Positions 25,575 through 31,235 of a stretch of DNA of 64,000 bases are shown here, piece by piece. Source of the DNA: Crocinitomicaceae bacterium (GTDB lineage Bacteria > Bacteroidota > Bacteroidia > Flavobacteriales_D > Crocinitomicaceae); contig JALQYQ010000016.1 of NCBI GenBank assembly GCA_023262855.1, positions 1-64,000 of the forward strand. Direction: 5' to 3'. How positions within the stretch are numbered: the first letter of the stretch is position 1; each line of letters begins with the position of its first letter. The notes beneath the pieces are model-generated. The model saw only the letters and a list, made by a program, of their open reading frames with translations. It was not told the origin of the DNA and made no database searches. The position numbers and the translations under genes are program-made.

Positions 25575-26732
25575 TTACTTGAGTGCTTTATGAATATCTT
25601 CCCAGATATCGTCAATATGTTCTAATCCAATCGATAAGCGAACTAAGCCGTCCGTTATTCCTACTTCCAAGCGCTGTTCCGATGTTAATTTCGAATGGGT
25701 TGTTGATGCTGGATGCGTTGCAATACTACGTGTATCACCCAAATTGGCAGTCAATGAAAATAGATTCAATTGATCTAAGAATTTTCTTCCAGCTTCTAAT
25801 CCACCTTTTAATTCAAAACTGACAATTCCCCCACCCTTTTTCATCTGTTTAATCACAATTTCATATTGTGGATGCGATTTCAAGAACGGATATTTCACAC
25901 ATTCGATGGCTTCATGTCCTTCTAATCGGGTGGCAATCTCTAGTGCATTTTTACAATGACGTTCCATTCTCACATCCAACGTTTCAAGCGATTTTGACAA
26001 TGTCCAAGCATTGAATGGACTTAAAGCCGGACCTGTATGACGCGCAAATGCTTTAACTTTCTCAATAATTTCAACAGATGAAAGGATTAATCCTCCCAAT
26101 GTTCTTCCTTGTCCATCGATGTATTTCGTTGCCGAATGAATCGTAACATCTGCCCCAAAATCAATTGGACGCTGCAACAAAGGCGTTGCAAAACAATTAT
26201 CAACAGCAAATAAAAGAGAATGACGTTTCGTAATCGAAGCAATTTTCTCCAAATCAATAATATCCAATCCTGGATTGCTTGGTGTTTCTAAAAACAAAAT
26301 CTTTGTTGCTGGCGTGATTGCATTTTCAAATCCTTCGTAATCGTCAAAATCAACATAGGTTGTTGTGATTCCCCATTTTGGTAAAATCTCTGTGAACAAG
26401 CGATGCGTTGATCCAAAGACCGAACGAGCAGAAACGATGTGATCACCACTTTGCAACAATGCTCCAAAGAATGTGAATACAGCTGCCATTCCAGAAGCCG
26501 TTGCCCAACCCGTTTCAGCGTTTTCCAACACCGCCATTTTATCAATCAATTCTTGCACATTCGGATTCGCATAACGGGAATAAATTTCCCCTTCTTTTTC
26601 ATCCGCGAATTGCGCACGCATGTCTTCCGCATCGTCAAATACGTAGCTGCTTGTAAGATATAATGGAACTGAATGTTCGTGATGTTTCGTTCGTTCGTTT
26701 TGAAGGCGAATGGCCAATGTTTCTTTTTCCAT
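25575..26732 (-). CDS. metZ: O-acyl-homoserine sulfhydrylase (MetZ-like PLP enzyme)
   Basis: A 385-residue PLP enzyme of the Cys/Met metabolism family. The Schiff-base Lys203 is in HSATKYIDGQGRTLGG, the PLP-ring Asp178 in VDNCFATP, and the YSRYANPN phosphate loop lies near residue 51. The GQGR sequence after the lysine is characteristic of O-succinylhomoserine sulfhydrylases (MetZ), which condense an activated homoserine with sulfide to homocysteine. MetX, encoded in the same operon, would supply the activated homoserine. Cystathionine synthase or lyase are less likely given the operon. It is the last gene, 3 nt behind the OsmC gene, and is followed by a strong terminator. Confidence 0.92.
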   Translation of the reverse strand: MEKETLAIRLQNERTKHHEHSVPLYLTSSYVFDDAEDMRAQFADEKEGEIYSRYANPNVQELIDKMAVLENAETGWATASGMAAVFTFFGALLQSGDHIVSARSVFGSTHRLFTEILPKWGITTTYVDFDDYEGFENAITPATKILFLETPSNPGLDIIDLEKIASITKRHSLLFAVDNCFATPLLQRPIDFGADVTIHSATKYIDGQGRTLGGLILSSVEIIEKVKAFARHTGPALSPFNAWTLSKSLETLDVRMERHCKNALEIATRLEGHEAIECVKYPFLKSHPQYEIVIKQMKKGGGIVSFELKGGLEAGRKFLDQLNLFSLTANLGDTRSIATHPASTTHSKLTSEQRLEVGITDGLVRLSIGLEHIDDIWEDIHKALK

Positions 26733-26735
26733 GGT

Positions 26736-27146
26736 TCAAATCTGTTCGCTTGTGAAAATGAGTTCTATTTGATTGTTTAAACTTGCTGCAACTGAGCAAT
26801 ATTTTTCAAGTGACAAGGCAATTGCTTTGTTCGCTTTAGCCAAATCAACTGCAGCGTCAAAGCGAAATGACAATTCGATTTTCTCGAACGGTGAAGGTTC
26901 TCCTTCTTTACGCACAGCATTGATTTCAACTGAATAATCAAGTAATTCAATGCGTTGTTTTTGTAAAATCAATAGTGTGTCAATCGAAGCACACGAAGCC
27001 AAGGAGCCAGCTAATAATTCCATCGGACGAAAGCCCAAGCCTTTACCACCAATCGCAGGATTTCCATCGATGATCACTTTATTATTTGCCTCATTACTCA
27101 ATTCGAGTACAAAAGGGGCTTCGATTCGTTTTAAATTTAATTTCAT
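26736..27146 (-). CDS. OsmC/Ohr family protein
   Basis: A 136-residue cytosolic protein of the OsmC fold. The two family cysteines are Cys52 (GSLASCASIDTLLIL) and Cys117 (LEKYCSVAASL), with GFRPMELLAGSLA before the first. OsmC/Ohr enzymes reduce organic hydroperoxides with thiols, while many relatives have no known substrate. Its place between the YeeE-type transporter halves and metZ suggests a job in handling reactive sulfur or a sulfur carrier; that is inference. Its start overlaps the stop of the DUF6691 gene (ATGA, 4 nt), and metZ follows after 3 nt. Confidence 0.88.
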   Translation of the reverse strand: MKLNLKRIEAPFVLELSNEANNKVIIDGNPAIGGKGLGFRPMELLAGSLASCASIDTLLILQKQRIELLDYSVEINAVRKEGEPSPFEKIELSFRFDAAVDLAKANKAIALSLEKYCSVAASLNNQIELIFTSEQI

Positions 27147-27562
27147 GCTTTCGGCAATTTACGTTCAACCAATGCGAAAAGGACAGTTCCAACAAATGCG
27201 CCTGCCAATAATATGATTCCAATTTTCCAATGCAAACCAACCAATATATAAACTGGTGCAGAACAAGCTCCTGAAATCGACCAACCTAATCCAAAGATTA
27301 ATCCGCCAAATATGTTCGCTTTCCATTCCAATTTTTTCGGCTTCACTTCGATTTCATTTCCATAAATTGATTTCTGTTTGTTGCGTTTCAGGATGTATAA
27401 AAACACTGCAGAAGTTGCAATTGCAGAAAACAATAAACCAAACATATGGAACGATTGAAAATGAAACATTTCTTGAATTCTATACCACGAAAATGCTTGT
27501 GATGCCAAGAGAATACTTCCAAAAAAGAATCCCAATGCGAGTGTTATGATAAATTTCAACAT
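27143..27562 (-). CDS. DUF6691 / YeeE-type sulfur transporter half, subunit 2
   Basis: A 139-residue membrane protein with four predicted helices. The GLIFGLGWSISGACSAP segment holds the conserved Cys of YeeE/YedE-type thiosulfate transporters. In Bacteroidota these transporters are often split into two half-size proteins, and this is the DUF6691-type half. The partner gene lies 1 nt upstream. In the TsuA transporter, paired cysteines along the pore relay thiosulfate; the same role is likely here. A 4-nt ATGA overlap leads into the OsmC gene. It probably supplies sulfur for the MetX-MetZ route. Confidence 0.87.
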   Translation of the reverse strand: MLKFIITLALGFFFGSILLASQAFSWYRIQEMFHFQSFHMFGLLFSAIATSAVFLYILKRNKQKSIYGNEIEVKPKKLEWKANIFGGLIFGLGWSISGACSAPVYILVGLHWKIGIILLAGAFVGTVLFALVERKLPKA

Positions 27563-27563
27563 C

Positions 27564-28055
27564 TTAAAAAATAAATGGATTAACGAAAAATGAACCGATT
27601 AGTCCGCCTATGAAAAACGAAACAGTTGCTAGAATGGAACTAGTTGCAAATTGAGAAACGCCCATGATACAATGTCCTGCTGTACAACCATTCGCGTAAC
27701 GCGCACCAAATCCAACTAAAATTCCTCCAACGAAAAATTGCAAACCGTTTTTCACATCGTAAATGTTCACCGCAAGTTTTTCATAGTCTCGAATTGGCTG
27801 AATAACAACGGCATCAAACGCACCAAACACTTGATAAGCGGCGAAACCGGATAAAATTAAGCCCAAAGCAAATTGAATCTGCCAGCGATCTCCATCTTTT
27901 TGGTACGAAAAATATGGAATCTTAGGTAACAATACTGCACCAATAAAGCGATAACTCGATGAAATACCGAATTGTTTTTCTCTTAAAATTAAGAGGGCAG
28001 GAACAATTAATCCAATCAGTGGTCCTGCTATGAACCAAGGTAAGGGAGCATTCAT
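27564..28055 (-). CDS. YeeE/YedE sulfur transporter half, subunit 1
   Basis: A 163-residue membrane protein with about four to five helices and the family signature ARYANGCTAGHCIMGVSQFA, whose two cysteines correspond to the substrate-relay Cys of YeeE/TsuA. It is half the length of the fused transporter and is followed after 1 nt by the DUF6691 half, so the two probably assemble into one transporter in the inner membrane. The gene begins 3 nt after the homoserine dehydrogenase stop, within the SAM-controlled met operon. This supports a role in importing thiosulfate or related sulfur compounds for methionine synthesis (inference from context). Confidence 0.88.
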   Translation of the reverse strand: MNAPLPWFIAGPLIGLIVPALLILREKQFGISSSYRFIGAVLLPKIPYFSYQKDGDRWQIQFALGLILSGFAAYQVFGAFDAVVIQPIRDYEKLAVNIYDVKNGLQFFVGGILVGFGARYANGCTAGHCIMGVSQFATSSILATVSFFIGGLIGSFFVNPFIF

Positions 28056-28058
28056 AAC

Positions 28059-29309
28059 TTATAGTTCAAATTCTGTTAAATACTGAATACGTTCTGATTT
28101 TAATTTCTCTGGTTGATTTGCTGCTACAAATGCGTCAGGAAGAACAATGAAAGACAAATCTGGCAATTGGTTTAAATCCAGTTCTTTCACGTCTTCAAAA
28201 CGTACCCAACCCGTTTGGTAATTGTACGTTTCACTTTGATACACCTCATCAACACGGTAAAAAGGAATCGTATTGATTGCTTCAATGAATTGAGACCCCA
28301 CATATGCTTTTAAGTAGAAATCATCTTGAAAATTCACATTTTCATTTCCAATTGACTTTCTGTATTCATATTGATAATCAAATTGAAGTGCCGAAATATC
28401 TGAAAGCACAGCACTTGCTGTTGGATAACTACCAGCACCTTTTCCAATGAACAATTGTTTGTCTGAGAACAAAGCCTCAACAACTACTGCATTGAATTCA
28501 TTGTCCACTTGGTAAGCGAAATGATCGCTTTTTACGAAATGCGGAGCAACGAAACCTACGATATCATTTCCAAGTTTTTCTGCACGTGAAAATAATTTAA
28601 TCCTGTATCCTTTTTCACCAGCATATTTGACATCTTGTGGTTTGATGTTACGAATTCCATAATTGAAGACGTCTTTCGGTTCAACCACCAATCCAAAGGC
28701 ATGTTTAATCAACAATACCAATTTGTATTTCGAATCGAAACCATCCACATCCAATGTTGGATCGATTTCAGCGAATCCTAATTCTTGTGCTTTCGCCAAT
28801 GCTTCTTCATACGCAACTCCATGATTCGATTGCGTTAATATGTAATTCGTTGTTCCGTTTACAATTCCTTGAACCGACGACAATGAATCGTTGTTGTAAT
28901 ACTCTTCCAAATTTCGAATGATTGGAATTGATCCGCCAACTGCTGCTTCGTACAAGAATGATACGTTATTTTCTTTTGCTGTAGCAATCAATTCTTCCAA
29001 ATGCTCAGCAATTAATTTTTTATTGGCAGAAACGACATGCTTTCCATTTTTCAATGCTTCCAAAACGATTGCATAAGCTGCTTCGCTATCATTGATTAAT
29101 TCTACAACAACATTGATTGAATCGTCTTTCAGAATTGCATCTTTATCATACAAAAATGCTTCTGCTGGTAAACCTCTTTTTTTCGTCGGATCTTTTACAA
29201 CAATTTTTGTGATGCGCGCTTCCAATAATTTACTCTTGTTTAACACTTCATACAATCCAGTTCCAACTACCCCGAAACCAAATAAACCGATATTTAATCT
29301 ACTTCTCAT
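28059..29309 (-). CDS. Homoserine dehydrogenase
   Basis: A 416-residue NAD(P)-dependent enzyme that reduces aspartate semialdehyde to homoserine, the branch point for methionine and threonine. The Rossmann motif GLFGFGVVGTGLYE (about 8-21), NKKLIAEH, GIVNGTTNYILTQS and EIDPTLDVDGFDSKYKL are typical. The C-terminal 80 residues do not show an obvious ACT domain. It is a stand-alone enzyme, not fused to aspartokinase. Its ATG overlaps the metX stop by 4 nt (ATGA), so homoserine production is tied to its own acylation under SAM-responsive control. Confidence 0.93.
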   Translation of the reverse strand: MRSRLNIGLFGFGVVGTGLYEVLNKSKLLEARITKIVVKDPTKKRGLPAEAFLYDKDAILKDDSINVVVELINDSEAAYAIVLEALKNGKHVVSANKKLIAEHLEELIATAKENNVSFLYEAAVGGSIPIIRNLEEYYNNDSLSSVQGIVNGTTNYILTQSNHGVAYEEALAKAQELGFAEIDPTLDVDGFDSKYKLVLLIKHAFGLVVEPKDVFNYGIRNIKPQDVKYAGEKGYRIKLFSRAEKLGNDIVGFVAPHFVKSDHFAYQVDNEFNAVVVEALFSDKQLFIGKGAGSYPTASAVLSDISALQFDYQYEYRKSIGNENVNFQDDFYLKAYVGSQFIEAINTIPFYRVDEVYQSETYNYQTGWVRFEDVKELDLNQLPDLSFIVLPDAFVAANQPEKLKSERIQYLTEFEL

Positions 29310-30370
29310 GCTACTACTTTTTTTGTTGTTGTTTTAAAAATTGTTGGACGATTTCCTTTAAAGTCATTGTATAGAAAGTCCGAAATAAGGCTTGTTAATT
29401 GTGTGTTTTCCACTAAGAATCCGTCATGACCGAATTCAGAATCAATTTTTCCGAAGAAAGCATTTGGAATCCATTCGCTTAAATACGCTTGTTCTGAAAT
29501 TGGGAACAATAAATCTGATTCAATTCCAATCACCAAGGTTCTCGCTTTGATTTGTTGAAGAGCAATTTCCACTGATGGACGTTTTCTTCCAACATTGTGC
29601 GCATCCATTGCTTTCGATAAAATCAAATAGGAATACGCATTGAAACGTTTTGCTAGTTTTTCTCCTTGGTAATGTTGATACGATGCTGCCAGGAAATTAT
29701 CAGTTGTGTGATTTCCTGGATTTGTTTGTGTTTTCGCATAACCATCGTAAGAGCGGTAACTTAACATTGCAATTGCACGTGCTGAAATCAATCCGTTTCT
29801 TCCTCCGTCGACGTTTCCATTTCCAAAGGTTTGATCAGCGAAAAGCGCCAAGCGTTGCGTTTCATTGAAGGCAATCCCAAAAGCAGAATGACGCGCATTT
29901 GTTGCAATCAAAATCAAGTTTTCAATTCGATTATTTTGTTCAATTGCCCATTCCAAGGCTTGTTGTCCACCAAGGGAAGCTCCAACCAATAAATTGATTT
30001 TTTCGATTCCCAAATGTTCACGCAATAAATCATGCGCTCTTGCCATATCACGCGTTGTAACAAACGGGAAATGATCCAAAACAGGTTCGTCATTTTTGAA
30101 GGTATTCAACGGACCGCTGGTACCATAATGTGAACCCAAAATATTTGCACAAACAATAAAATGTTCTGATGGATTGAATAAATCATTTTCACCAAAAACG
30201 CCATTCCACCAATCAAAAACATCGCTGTTAGCTGTTAATGCGTGTGTTACCCAAACGACATTGTTTTTTGAAGGATCAAAGGTTCCAAATGTGTGATAAG
30301 CAATTTGTAAATTTTCGATTATTTCACCGCTTTCCAATTTGAAAGCTTGGTGCGTATTATAAATATTCAT
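29306..30370 (-). CDS. metX: Homoserine O-acyltransferase (MetX)
   Basis: A 354-residue alpha/beta-hydrolase-fold enzyme. The nucleophile Ser132 is in LLVGASLGGQQALEWA, and the catalytic His in FGHDGFLVE. The entry ILGSHYGTSGP and WVTHALTANSD are family hallmarks. MetX activates homoserine with acetyl-CoA; some MetX-clade enzymes use succinyl-CoA instead, so the acyl group is left open, although the downstream MetZ type hints at succinyl. It is the first structural gene of the met operon. The ATG lies 59 nt after the hairpin of a putative attenuator and about 90 nt after the leader peptide stop. Confidence 0.94.
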   Translation of the reverse strand: MNIYNTHQAFKLESGEIIENLQIAYHTFGTFDPSKNNVVWVTHALTANSDVFDWWNGVFGENDLFNPSEHFIVCANILGSHYGTSGPLNTFKNDEPVLDHFPFVTTRDMARAHDLLREHLGIEKINLLVGASLGGQQALEWAIEQNNRIENLILIATNARHSAFGIAFNETQRLALFADQTFGNGNVDGGRNGLISARAIAMLSYRSYDGYAKTQTNPGNHTTDNFLAASYQHYQGEKLAKRFNAYSYLILSKAMDAHNVGRKRPSVEIALQQIKARTLVIGIESDLLFPISEQAYLSEWIPNAFFGKIDSEFGHDGFLVENTQLTSLISDFLYNDFKGNRPTIFKTTTKKVVA

Positions 30371-30429
30371 GTTGAATTATTGAGTGGTAAATAAAAAATT
30401 GAAAGCACTATCAGCGAGATGCGATAGTT

Positions 30430-30467
30430 AAAAAATGCTAGAATTATCTGAACTGATCAGATTAGCA
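30430..30467 (-). terminator. Putative attenuator terminator overlapping the leader peptide stop
   Basis: On the minus strand TGCTA-ATCTGA (30457-30467) pairs with TCAGAT (30446-30451) and TAGCA (30436-30440), with a 5-nt loop and a 5-nt bulge; six T follow at once (30430-30435). The 5' arm contains the last Cys codon (TGC) and the TAA stop of the leader peptide. This is the layout expected for ribosome-controlled attenuation before metX. Confidence 0.6.
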
Positions 30468-30587
30468 CATGCAGCAACAGCAGCACATACAGCACATTGA
30501 GTAGAATCCTACAACGGAAATTGATTTCACTGCTTTCAGGGTTGAAAGACTTTTTTCTTGGCTTGAAGAATGTAATTCCTTTTTCAT
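30462..30587 (-). CDS. Cys/Met-rich leader peptide, 41 aa
   Basis: A 41-codon ORF between the SAM riboswitch and metX: MKKELHSSSQEKSLSTLKAV, then KSISVVGFYS and the end MCCMCCCCCMC. The last eleven codons hold eight Cys and three Met, the two sulfur amino acids that this operon serves. Such a run is the hallmark of leader peptides that sense charged tRNA by ribosome stalling. The stop codon and last Cys codon lie inside the 5' arm of a hairpin followed by U6. The ATG at 30587 is 10 nt after the riboswitch P1 stem. The frame is open upstream through the riboswitch, but that part is not credible protein. That it is translated is inference. Confidence 0.65.
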   Translation of the reverse strand: MKKELHSSSQEKSLSTLKAVKSISVVGFYSMCCMCCCCCMC

Positions 30588-30596
30588 AATCTGTTG

Positions 30597-30718
30597 TTTA
30601 TATTCTTCCGAACATTCGGAATCAGGAATTGGCACCGGTTTTCCAACCCCGTGCGTACGGGACTTAAAGTTGGTTGCCAGAGGATCACAGAGCCTGTCTC
30701 TCACCTCTTCTTTATAAA
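30597..30718 (-). promoter_or_regulatory. SAM-I (S-box) riboswitch of the met operon
   Basis: The minus strand shows the S-box core in order: P1 arm TTTATA, AAGAAGAGGTGAGAGACAGG, TCCTCTGGCAACC, a P3 hairpin region CCCGTACGCACGGG, GGTGCCAATTCC, a P4 hairpin TTCCGAATGTTCGGAA, and the closing P1 arm TATAAA. The GGCAACC and GGTGCCAATTCC blocks are diagnostic. SAM binding should switch off expression. It ends only about 10 nt before the leader peptide ATG, so it may act on that start or on the later terminator. Confidence 0.92.
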
Positions 30719-30759
30719 TCTTAGATTCACCGTTTGTGAAAATGATGCTGCAAATGTTT

Positions 30760-30767
30760 TAAATTTG
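30760..30767 (+). promoter_or_regulatory. -7 promoter box for the gene at 30831
   Basis: TAAATTTG is an exact TAnnTTTG match on the plus strand. TTTG at 30733-30736 could be its -33 element, though the 23-nt spacer is long. The predicted 5' leader is about 60 nt. Confidence 0.45.
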
Positions 30768-30830
30768 TTTTCGTTTTACCAAACATTTTTTGATTTATTT
30801 TTTTTCACCTGTCATTTTAAGCTACAAATT

Positions 30831-31235
30831 ATGTCCAAAATCAACTTTAGTAAACTACTCATTCCTATCGCTTTAACTGCGCTAATTGGTTATTTTTCGT
30901 ACACCTATTTTTTGAAGGATATTATTTTAAATAATTCAACACAAACCATTGAATTGAAAGATTTTGGTCTTTCAAAAGCATGTAATTTGAAAAAACATGA
31001 AGGTCAATCGAGTATTTCTTCACTTGAAATTGAACTTTCTGGAACAAGTACAGACAATTTATACTTGGTTTTTGGTCCAACAAAAGATCAATTAGTGGAA
31101 CAAATTCAATTAAAAAAAGGGACGATTGACTTTCAAAAATCGACTGAATGGAAAACGGATAATTGTTATTTTTTAATCATCAATGAAAAAGGTGAAAGCG
31201 TTGATTTGAAATTGGATTATCGTTTTATTCACTGA
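30831..31235 (+). CDS. Small membrane-anchored protein of unknown function
   Basis: A 134-residue protein with one N-terminal hydrophobic segment (LLIPIALTALIGYFSYTYFL, about 9-28), after which the chain is probably periplasmic. The rest has regular beta-strand patterns (SSLEIELSGTSTDNLYLVFG, DNCYFLIINEKGESVDLKLD). I recognise no family. The frame is open 5' into the riboswitch region on the other strand, but the ATG at 30831 (MSKINFSKLL) fits the promoter and the membrane segment. It is 31 nt upstream of the AI-2E-type permease gene on the same strand. Confidence 0.7.
   Translation: MSKINFSKLLIPIALTALIGYFSYTYFLKDIILNNSTQTIELKDFGLSKACNLKKHEGQSSISSLEIELSGTSTDNLYLVFGPTKDQLVEQIQLKKGTIDFQKSTEWKTDNCYFLIINEKGESVDLKLDYRFIH

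Follow-up and report, generated by a model that had tools for sequence, protein, structure and literature searches.

The 5′ leader of a methionine biosynthesis operon in a Crocinitomicaceae bacterium appears to carry two sensors in series: a SAM-I riboswitch that would gate translation of a leader peptide, followed by a Cys(/Met) leader-peptide attenuator that this translation would operate. We put the probability of this reading at roughly 0.6. The stretch of DNA analyzed, called the window throughout, is 64,000 nucleotides long, and the operon and its leader lie on the minus strand. The anatomy of the leader, its position, its recurrence in relatives and its bias toward Met and Cys codons can be read directly from the genomes. 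The leader peptide and its codon run are located as follows.

30587..30462, minus strand: leader peptide ORF of 41 amino acids, MKKELHSSSQEKSLSTLKAVKSISVVGFYSMCCMCCCCCMC, TAA stop
30587-30585 and 30464-30462, minus strand: ATG and TAA of the leader, 41 codons
30465..30497, minus strand: Cys/Met codon run, codons 31-41, with a Cys tail that is recurrent in relatives

The peptide ends in M C C M C C C C C M C, that is, 8 Cys and 3 Met in 11 codons. An earlier note on this DNA had described a 41-codon ORF ending in this run, and its coordinates and counts proved correct on re-reading of the sequence. The close relative G002 shares 22 of the first 23 residues, and the window peptide had no match in Pfam or NCBIfam at E ≤ 1. 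An 80-amino-acid ORF with a GTG start (30704..30462) was set aside, as it overlaps the SAM-I aptamer described below. The pattern TGYx5 occurs nine times in the genome, and eight of the nine sites were translated; they comprise the window leader, six sites with no ATG ahead of the run in frame, and one C8 run in a 35-amino-acid frame on the strand opposite a glutamine-rich segment of a long ORF. No second poly-Cys leader was found among these eight.

Downstream of the leader lie the genes of the operon.

29309..30370, minus strand: metX, homoserine O-acetyltransferase, first operon gene (TIGR01392, E 3e-96, 322 bits, below the curated cut-off of 500)
28059..29309, minus strand: homoserine dehydrogenase (PRK06349, 343.8 bits, above cut-off; Pfam Homoserine_dh)
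27564..28055, minus strand: sulphur transport protein (PF04143)
27143..27562, minus strand: sulphur transport protein (PF04143/DUF6691)
26736..27146, minus strand: OsmC-like protein
25575..26732, minus strand: O-acyl-homoserine sulfhydrylase-like Cys/Met PLP enzyme (PF01053, E 3e-135; PRK08133, 517 bits, just below the cut-off of 522)

The gaps within metX-hom-sulphur transport-osmC-sulfhydrylase are short or absent, and the leader lies ahead of a biosynthetic operon for the same or a linked amino acid, as attenuators do. The earlier claim of a Cys/Met-codon leader peptide ahead of a Met biosynthesis operon is supported by the recurrence of the ORF and its Cys run in many relatives, detailed below.

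Upstream of the leader, the window contains a riboswitch aptamer and a divergent gene.

30720..30595, minus strand: SAM-I riboswitch aptamer (RF00162; 65.1 bits against a gathering cut-off of 44.4, E 6e-15, model positions 1-108, complete)
30594-31235, plus strand: divergent gene to the right of the aptamer

The aptamer scores above the curated threshold for the sequence and structure of RF00162 and ends 7 nt before the leader ATG. This aptamer had been missed in the earlier note, and its position directly upstream argues against the leader acting as the sole sensor. A search of 30340-30900 at E ≤ 1 returned the SAM aptamer and one sub-threshold snoRNA match, with no T-box downstream of the aptamer. 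The TTTG box is an element of the Bacteroidota promoter. About 30 nt ahead of the aptamer, at 30783-30751 (minus strand), TTTG, 21 nt and AACATTTG form a near match to this promoter; the pattern TAnnTTTG was taken from the accessible portion of PMC6847099. The genome holds one further SAM-I aptamer, ahead of a homocysteine S-methyltransferase gene (PF02574, 340 bits; locus L001) that served as the metH query in our comparisons and defines the genes called metH-like here. The short-ORF scan found no Cys-rich short ORF at that locus.

Two hairpins lie between the end of the leader and metX.

30435..30468, minus strand: terminator-like hairpin overlapping the last Cys and stop codons, with a T run after it to 30430 (dG −10.4 kcal/mol)
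30407..30428, minus strand: second hairpin, ACTATCGC...GATAGT, between the terminator and metX (sequence and predicted fold)

The first of these, GTGCTAATCTGATCAGTTCAGATAATTCTAGCAT with its T run, includes the last TGC and the TAA. It had been described as an 11-bp hairpin followed by U6; the hairpin and the T run stand, and the stem proper consists of two 6-pair blocks with a 5-nt bulge, owing to which a simple terminator scan reports no terminator in the window. The region spanning 30 nt upstream to 75 nt downstream of the leader stop is 2.4 SD more stable than shuffles (z −2.44). The hairpin sequence is not conserved and is already different in the 85-87% relatives. With respect to the label of translational attenuation used previously, the window has the anatomy of a transcription terminator, and the label fits better the related genus g11, where Cys codons pair before the metX start.

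The dependence of the terminator on ribosome position was evaluated with a static folding model in which the ribosome covers 13 nt from the A-site and the timing of polymerase and ribosome is ignored. With the A-site at codons 32-36, the terminator stays formed (about 0.81 paired); at codon 37 it is partly formed (0.66), and from codon 38 to the stop it is broken. A model of exact pairs placed the hairpin at 0.97 with the ribosome at the first Cys and at 0.00 with the ribosome at the last. The proposal that a stalled ribosome covers the 5′ arm is therefore consistent with the model from codon 38 on and fails at codons 32-36, where the hairpin stays formed, so that slowing would have to occur late in the Cys run; in the window, a ribosome arrested on its first Cys codon would allow termination. 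In the static model without a ribosome, the terminator probability is 0.42-0.48, because the Cys run folds on itself. As the untranslated leader thus forms the terminator about half the time, the idea that the operon is off by default is weakened, and default termination of an untranslated leader would be the weakest step of our explanation.

RF00162 matches were present in 53 of 60 genomes, the source genome counted. A wide scan of upstream regions, which ignored the riboswitch and kinship and counted any ORF up to 330 nt before the gene, found a short ORF with a Cys-dense tail (at least 4 Cys in 10 codons) in 65 of 162 metX or oahL regions of Bacteroidota, where oahL denotes the long-form sulfhydrylase (TIGR01326, 680 bits against a cut-off of 495). 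A further 13 of the 162 regions have 3 Cys near the stop, and three such hits (L167, L190, and L237) are probably chance matches. Tails of at least 4 Cys were absent from all 54 regions ahead of metH-like genes in the same scan, and the reverse strand of the same 162 regions gave none with at least 4 Cys and two with 3. Relatives had been proposed as a check on the ORF upstream of metX, and both the ORF and its Cys run recur there.

A second survey started from 162 unique aptamer cores, found by a sequence pattern of which a looser form found none in 66 of 245 loci. A tail of at least 3 Cys before the stop was present at 30 of 46 cores ahead of metX, 13 of 56 ahead of oahL, 1 of 2 ahead of hom and 1 of 4 ahead of a short-form sulfhydrylase, and at none of those ahead of metH-like genes (0/51), osmC (0/1) or no recognised gene (0/2); these counts include some weak three-Cys hits and four oahL cores that lie inside the gene. 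Within the window's family, a hand tally of the 43 genomes with a metX match gave 28 with the leader, 2 with a three-Cys version, 10 with none and 3 that could not be judged. A class-wide search for oahL matched 51 of 197 genomes; a leader with at least 3 Cys was found in 21 of the best-scoring 30 loci, and 6 of these 21 leaders end more than 200 nt upstream of the gene. In family f28, the wide scan turned up no credible leader at the oahL loci.

Carriers of the leader include Olivibacter jilunii (L121), Solitalea longa and S. agri (L124 and L125), Lewinella cohaerens (L135) and two Chitinophagaceae assemblies (L127 and L130). The leader at L118 is identical to that of G208 (L089), a genome of the window's family. 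At L041, a SAM aptamer and a 21-amino-acid leader ending in GCCCCC are found ahead of homoserine dehydrogenase. At L111, a sulfhydrylase gene is located between the leader and a metX that is 98% identical to that of the window; the window genome contains no match to this sulfhydrylase gene at E ≤ 1e-60, and its leader consequently now stands directly before metX.

Codon-level comparisons were made on 18 close pairs of leaders. The Cys columns comprise 70 identical, 22 synonymous and 13 nonsynonymous codons, compared with 211, 43 and 161 in the leader bodies (Fisher p 1.6e-6), in pairs that were hand-chosen and are not independent and among which the L142 peptide as taken begins inside the aptamer. 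Since the ORFs were picked for Cys content, the nonsynonymous count in the Cys columns is biased low. With that bias, the synonymous conservation of the Cys run that the earlier note had suggested examining is seen in these ratios (22:13 against 43:161). In 65 SAM-linked leaders, the last 14 codons are 40% Cys and 12.4% Met, and the body is 1.1% Cys and 1.4% Met; the leaders had been selected for Cys, not for Met. Cys codon usage is divided between TGT and TGC (250 v 185 codons). Four operons (L084, L085, L091, and L136) keep an ORF behind the aptamer without the Cys run, and at two of them, L084 and L085, the ORF resembles the leader of L089 with the CCCC run replaced by ACR or RQ, a change that suggests decay or retuning of the sensor.

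These data bear on two explanations in which the codon run would not serve as a sensor. The small protein could itself be functional, for example as a Cys-rich metal- or thiol-binding peptide co-regulated with the sulphur genes, as its eight C-terminal Cys could bind metal and the ORF is widespread upstream of met genes. This is improbable given that the sequence outside the tail is not conserved (43 synonymous to 161 nonsynonymous changes), the window peptide matches no Pfam or NCBIfam family, lengths vary from 21 to 59 amino acids among the leaders listed, and the ORF keeps its place relative to the riboswitch and the start of the operon. We regard as still more improbable a chance ORF or triplet-repeat expansion that is functionless in the source species: its recurrence across numerous families, its absence from the controls and the synonymous turnover in the Cys columns stand against it, and in its favor are the bulged, nonconserved hairpin of the window, a null duplex test there (z +0.40), and the relatives whose ORF at this place has no Cys run.

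Around the leader stop, predicted structure exceeds that of shuffled sequence in stability, with a mean z of −1.81 over 76 loci. Among the 68 leaders whose distance was suitable, 20 carry a hairpin of dG ≤ −10 with a U-rich tail, compared with 3.3% of 816 shuffles, and 36 are without a U-tailed hairpin at dG ≤ −6. In 7 of 9 operons of genus g11, UGUGUUGU pairs with ACAACACA, or with a near variant of it, immediately ahead of the metX start. This pairing would mask the only in-frame metX start seen, a predicted start-masking arrangement. By eye, the g11 stem displays one-sided changes only, and between lineages the hairpins seem too different to be aligned.

Pairing of the Cys run with downstream sequence had a mean z of −0.61 over the 76 loci (body control −0.21, paired p 0.014), with the window itself at +0.40. 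Direct pairing of this kind was rejected as a general rule, being weak over the 76 loci, and is claimed for g11 alone. The g11 stems would suit an explanation in which the TGY run serves RNA pairing and is not maintained as codons. Besides the weak test over 76 leaders, this conflicts with the mixture of TGT and TGC at third bases, with the run being in frame with an ATG 5-10 nt behind the P1 helix of the aptamer in 25 of 27 measured loci, and with the enrichment of Met, which would break a TGY pattern; we therefore hold it to be quite unlikely.

The static folding model was also applied to the 20 strongest hairpins, a set that includes L237 although its leader is doubtful as a probable chance three-Cys hit. 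Eleven of the hairpins depend on ribosome position, seven are unaffected at every position tested, and two are slight or uninformative (L112 is nearly unaffected and L274 low throughout). Eight are occluded with the ribosome at the last Cys, namely the window, L116, L044, L130, L135, L284, L170 and L254, and three of these (L116, L044, and L284) are occluded already at the first Cys. The remaining three are antiterminator-like, with a hairpin probability that is lower while the ribosome sits on the first Cys and high once it reaches the stop: L111 rises from 0.00 to 0.89, L237 from 0.06 to 0.99 and L249 from 0.57 to 0.95. The L111 hairpin has a poor U tail, and its probability without a ribosome is 0.38 with exact pairs versus 0.96 in another model, which used a different U run and counted any pairing of the last bases. 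The antiterminator-like behavior of L111, the nearest relative of the window, is accordingly no more than suggestive.

A link between the leader and the riboswitch is suggested by the spacing. Measured from Rfam aptamer ends, the gap between aptamer and leader ATG is 5-10 nt in 25 of 27 loci and 15 and 20 nt in the others (30 loci listed, 3 of them unmeasured; L127, L130, and L170 are not in the list). For 39 of 42 leaders, an in-frame ATG is placed 19-47 nt past the aptamer core. In L127, L130 and L170, the leader ATG is 176-197 nt past the core and behind a U-tailed hairpin, as read by eye, so the two stages look independent there and gating would not be universal. The 3′ strand of P1 ahead of the leader ATG reads UAUAAA in most measured loci. 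In Flavobacterium johnsoniae, adenines at −12/−13, −6 and −3 and low structure in the start region favor initiation, according to the portion of PMC6847099 available to us; a closed P1 should therefore hinder the leader start. Of the ten leaderless genomes of the family, five (L094-L097 and L101) have the metX ATG close behind the same P1 strand, four are those mentioned above that keep an ORF there without the Cys run, and in the last (L061) neither the metX ATG nor an ORF lies close behind it.

The principal alternative accepts the leader as a real attenuator and makes the SAM-I riboswitch independent, with its own terminator or antiterminator, the two being merely stacked. It would account for the U-tailed hairpin between aptamer and leader in L127, L130 and L170 (read by eye) and for the terminator that the window's untranslated leader forms about half the time, which would be unwanted under gating; SAM-I/T-box-Met tandems, read as stacked regulators in PMC9481103, likewise precede metX and metY. 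We nevertheless consider it unlikely, because the 5-10 nt from aptamer to ATG in the window and 24 others of the 27 loci leaves no room for a terminator, and because metX itself starts close behind the same strand in the five leaderless relatives.

Eleven leaders have no SAM aptamer, as checked for each with Rfam. Their tails (up to 18 codons) contain on average 4.0 Met and 4.8 Cys, versus 1.8 Met and 5.7 Cys in leaders with an aptamer (Mann-Whitney, Met p 3.3e-5 and Cys p 0.034, with kinship ignored and start codons of very short ORFs included). This suggests that leader codons may do the sensing of Met where a SAM-sensing riboswitch is missing. Eight of the 11 were included in the terminator scan, giving four strong terminators (L268 −23.6, L251 −21.5, L285 −18.8, and L249 −18.6 kcal/mol), one weak, and three leaders without one. 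At L249 (713-954) and L251 (694-976, reverse strand), both of family f9, two Met/Cys leaders are arranged in series before a sulfhydrylase gene, each with its own strong terminator. Sub-threshold Rfam matches to His_leader on L268 and to the Bacteroides small RNA BTnc231 on L285 (2856-3005, minus strand, 33.4 bits against a cut-off of 80.4, near the Met/Cys leader) were taken as chance.

From these observations we infer the following sequence of events for the two-sensor leader. When SAM is plentiful, the P1 helix would form and sequester the UAUAAA just before the leader start, leaving the leader little translated. When SAM is low, the leader would be translated, and its Cys(/Met) run would gauge charged tRNA-Cys (and tRNA-Met). 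If charged tRNA suffices, the ribosome would complete the leader and depart, and the stop-codon hairpin with its U6 would terminate transcription; with charged tRNA short, the ribosome would linger on the later Cys codons, the 5′ arm would remain unpaired, and polymerase would enter metX-hom-sulphur transport-osmC-sulfhydrylase. The predicted states are mostly off at high SAM, low expression at low SAM with enough Cys, and on at low SAM with low Cys, such that the operon would be fully on only under a joint shortage of SAM and cysteine (sulphur amino acids). Among relatives, the output would vary, by direct occlusion, by an antiterminator-like alternative, or by a hairpin masking the metX start.

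A broader generalization is that of a nested RNA gate, in which the output of the riboswitch is whether a tRNA-sensing leader is translated, with lineages trading the SAM riboswitch against Met codons and with transcriptional and translational outputs in several Bacteroidota lineages. We offer this tentatively, at a shade under even odds. If true, a riboswitch would control a second, translation-based sensor rather than the gene itself, a major phylum would have a naturally occurring control of sulphur amino acid synthesis with two inputs, and attenuation would work in bacteria that mostly initiate translation without Shine-Dalgarno sequences. The sister operons provide natural experiments, with the leader present or lost, the Cys run kept or lost, the aptamer present or absent, and a terminator or start masking as output.

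Ribosome-mediated leader-peptide attenuators are a known class in amino acid operons such as trp, his and ilv. The window leader resembles them in its short ORF that ends in repeated codons for the amino acid under control, its downstream hairpins and its place 5′ of a biosynthetic operon, and differs in its occurrence in Bacteroidota, its Cys (and Met) codons and its position directly behind a SAM-I aptamer; an antiterminator was not seen in the window. Outside Proteobacteria and Actinobacteria, the portion of a 2010 survey that we consulted (PMC2965389) gives ermC and its own find in Firmicutes as the only leader peptide systems known to it. The Cys-codon leaders of Actinobacteria (PMC1262725, in part) likewise place runs of Cys codons close to the end of short ORFs that precede sulphur genes; the sections seen report no conserved terminator hairpin and name no joined riboswitch, and unlike those leaders, that of the window precedes met genes with its ATG behind an aptamer. 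Mycobacterial poly-Cys sORFs are termed leaderless in the title of Canestrari 2020, as cited in the accessible text of PMC13236596, and the aptamer directly upstream argues against the window leader being of that type. The element uORFC-8-2 of Rhodobacterales cysS (PMC8632094) combines Cys codons in a uORF with an intrinsic terminator, as the window leader would. As described in the passages available, it has two Cys codons near codons 14-15, precedes cysS in alphaproteobacteria and involves no riboswitch; the window leader, with Cys at codons 32-41 and upstream of metX, falls outside its definition.

Within the phylum, the text seen of a study of Flavobacterium psychrophilum amino acid operons (PMC9723704) states clues for leader-peptide attenuation; its attenuation section names no Cys/Met leader, and "methionine" occurs 0 times in the main text. 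For Bacteroides thetaiotaomicron, the part of PMC7366714 consulted comments in general terms on sORFs resembling leader peptides. In a literature search that covered freely available main texts, we found no SAM riboswitch joined to a Cys leader in Bacteroidota. Each component is of a known kind, and their arrangement in series was not found in the literature searched. The SAM-II riboswitch of Sinorhizobium meliloti metA (PMC9373788, in part) is like the proposed arrangement in that a SAM riboswitch acts on translation with a terminator further down the leader; it belongs to another aptamer class, has two in-frame metA starts, and in the sections seen is described with no mention of a codon run. 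The SAM-I/T-box tandem, as far as its published description was available to us, shares with the window leader a SAM sensor followed by an aminoacylation sensor, the same genes downstream and the same predicted logic. In the window, however, the second sensor would be a ribosome on Cys codons, and its start codon abuts the aptamer.
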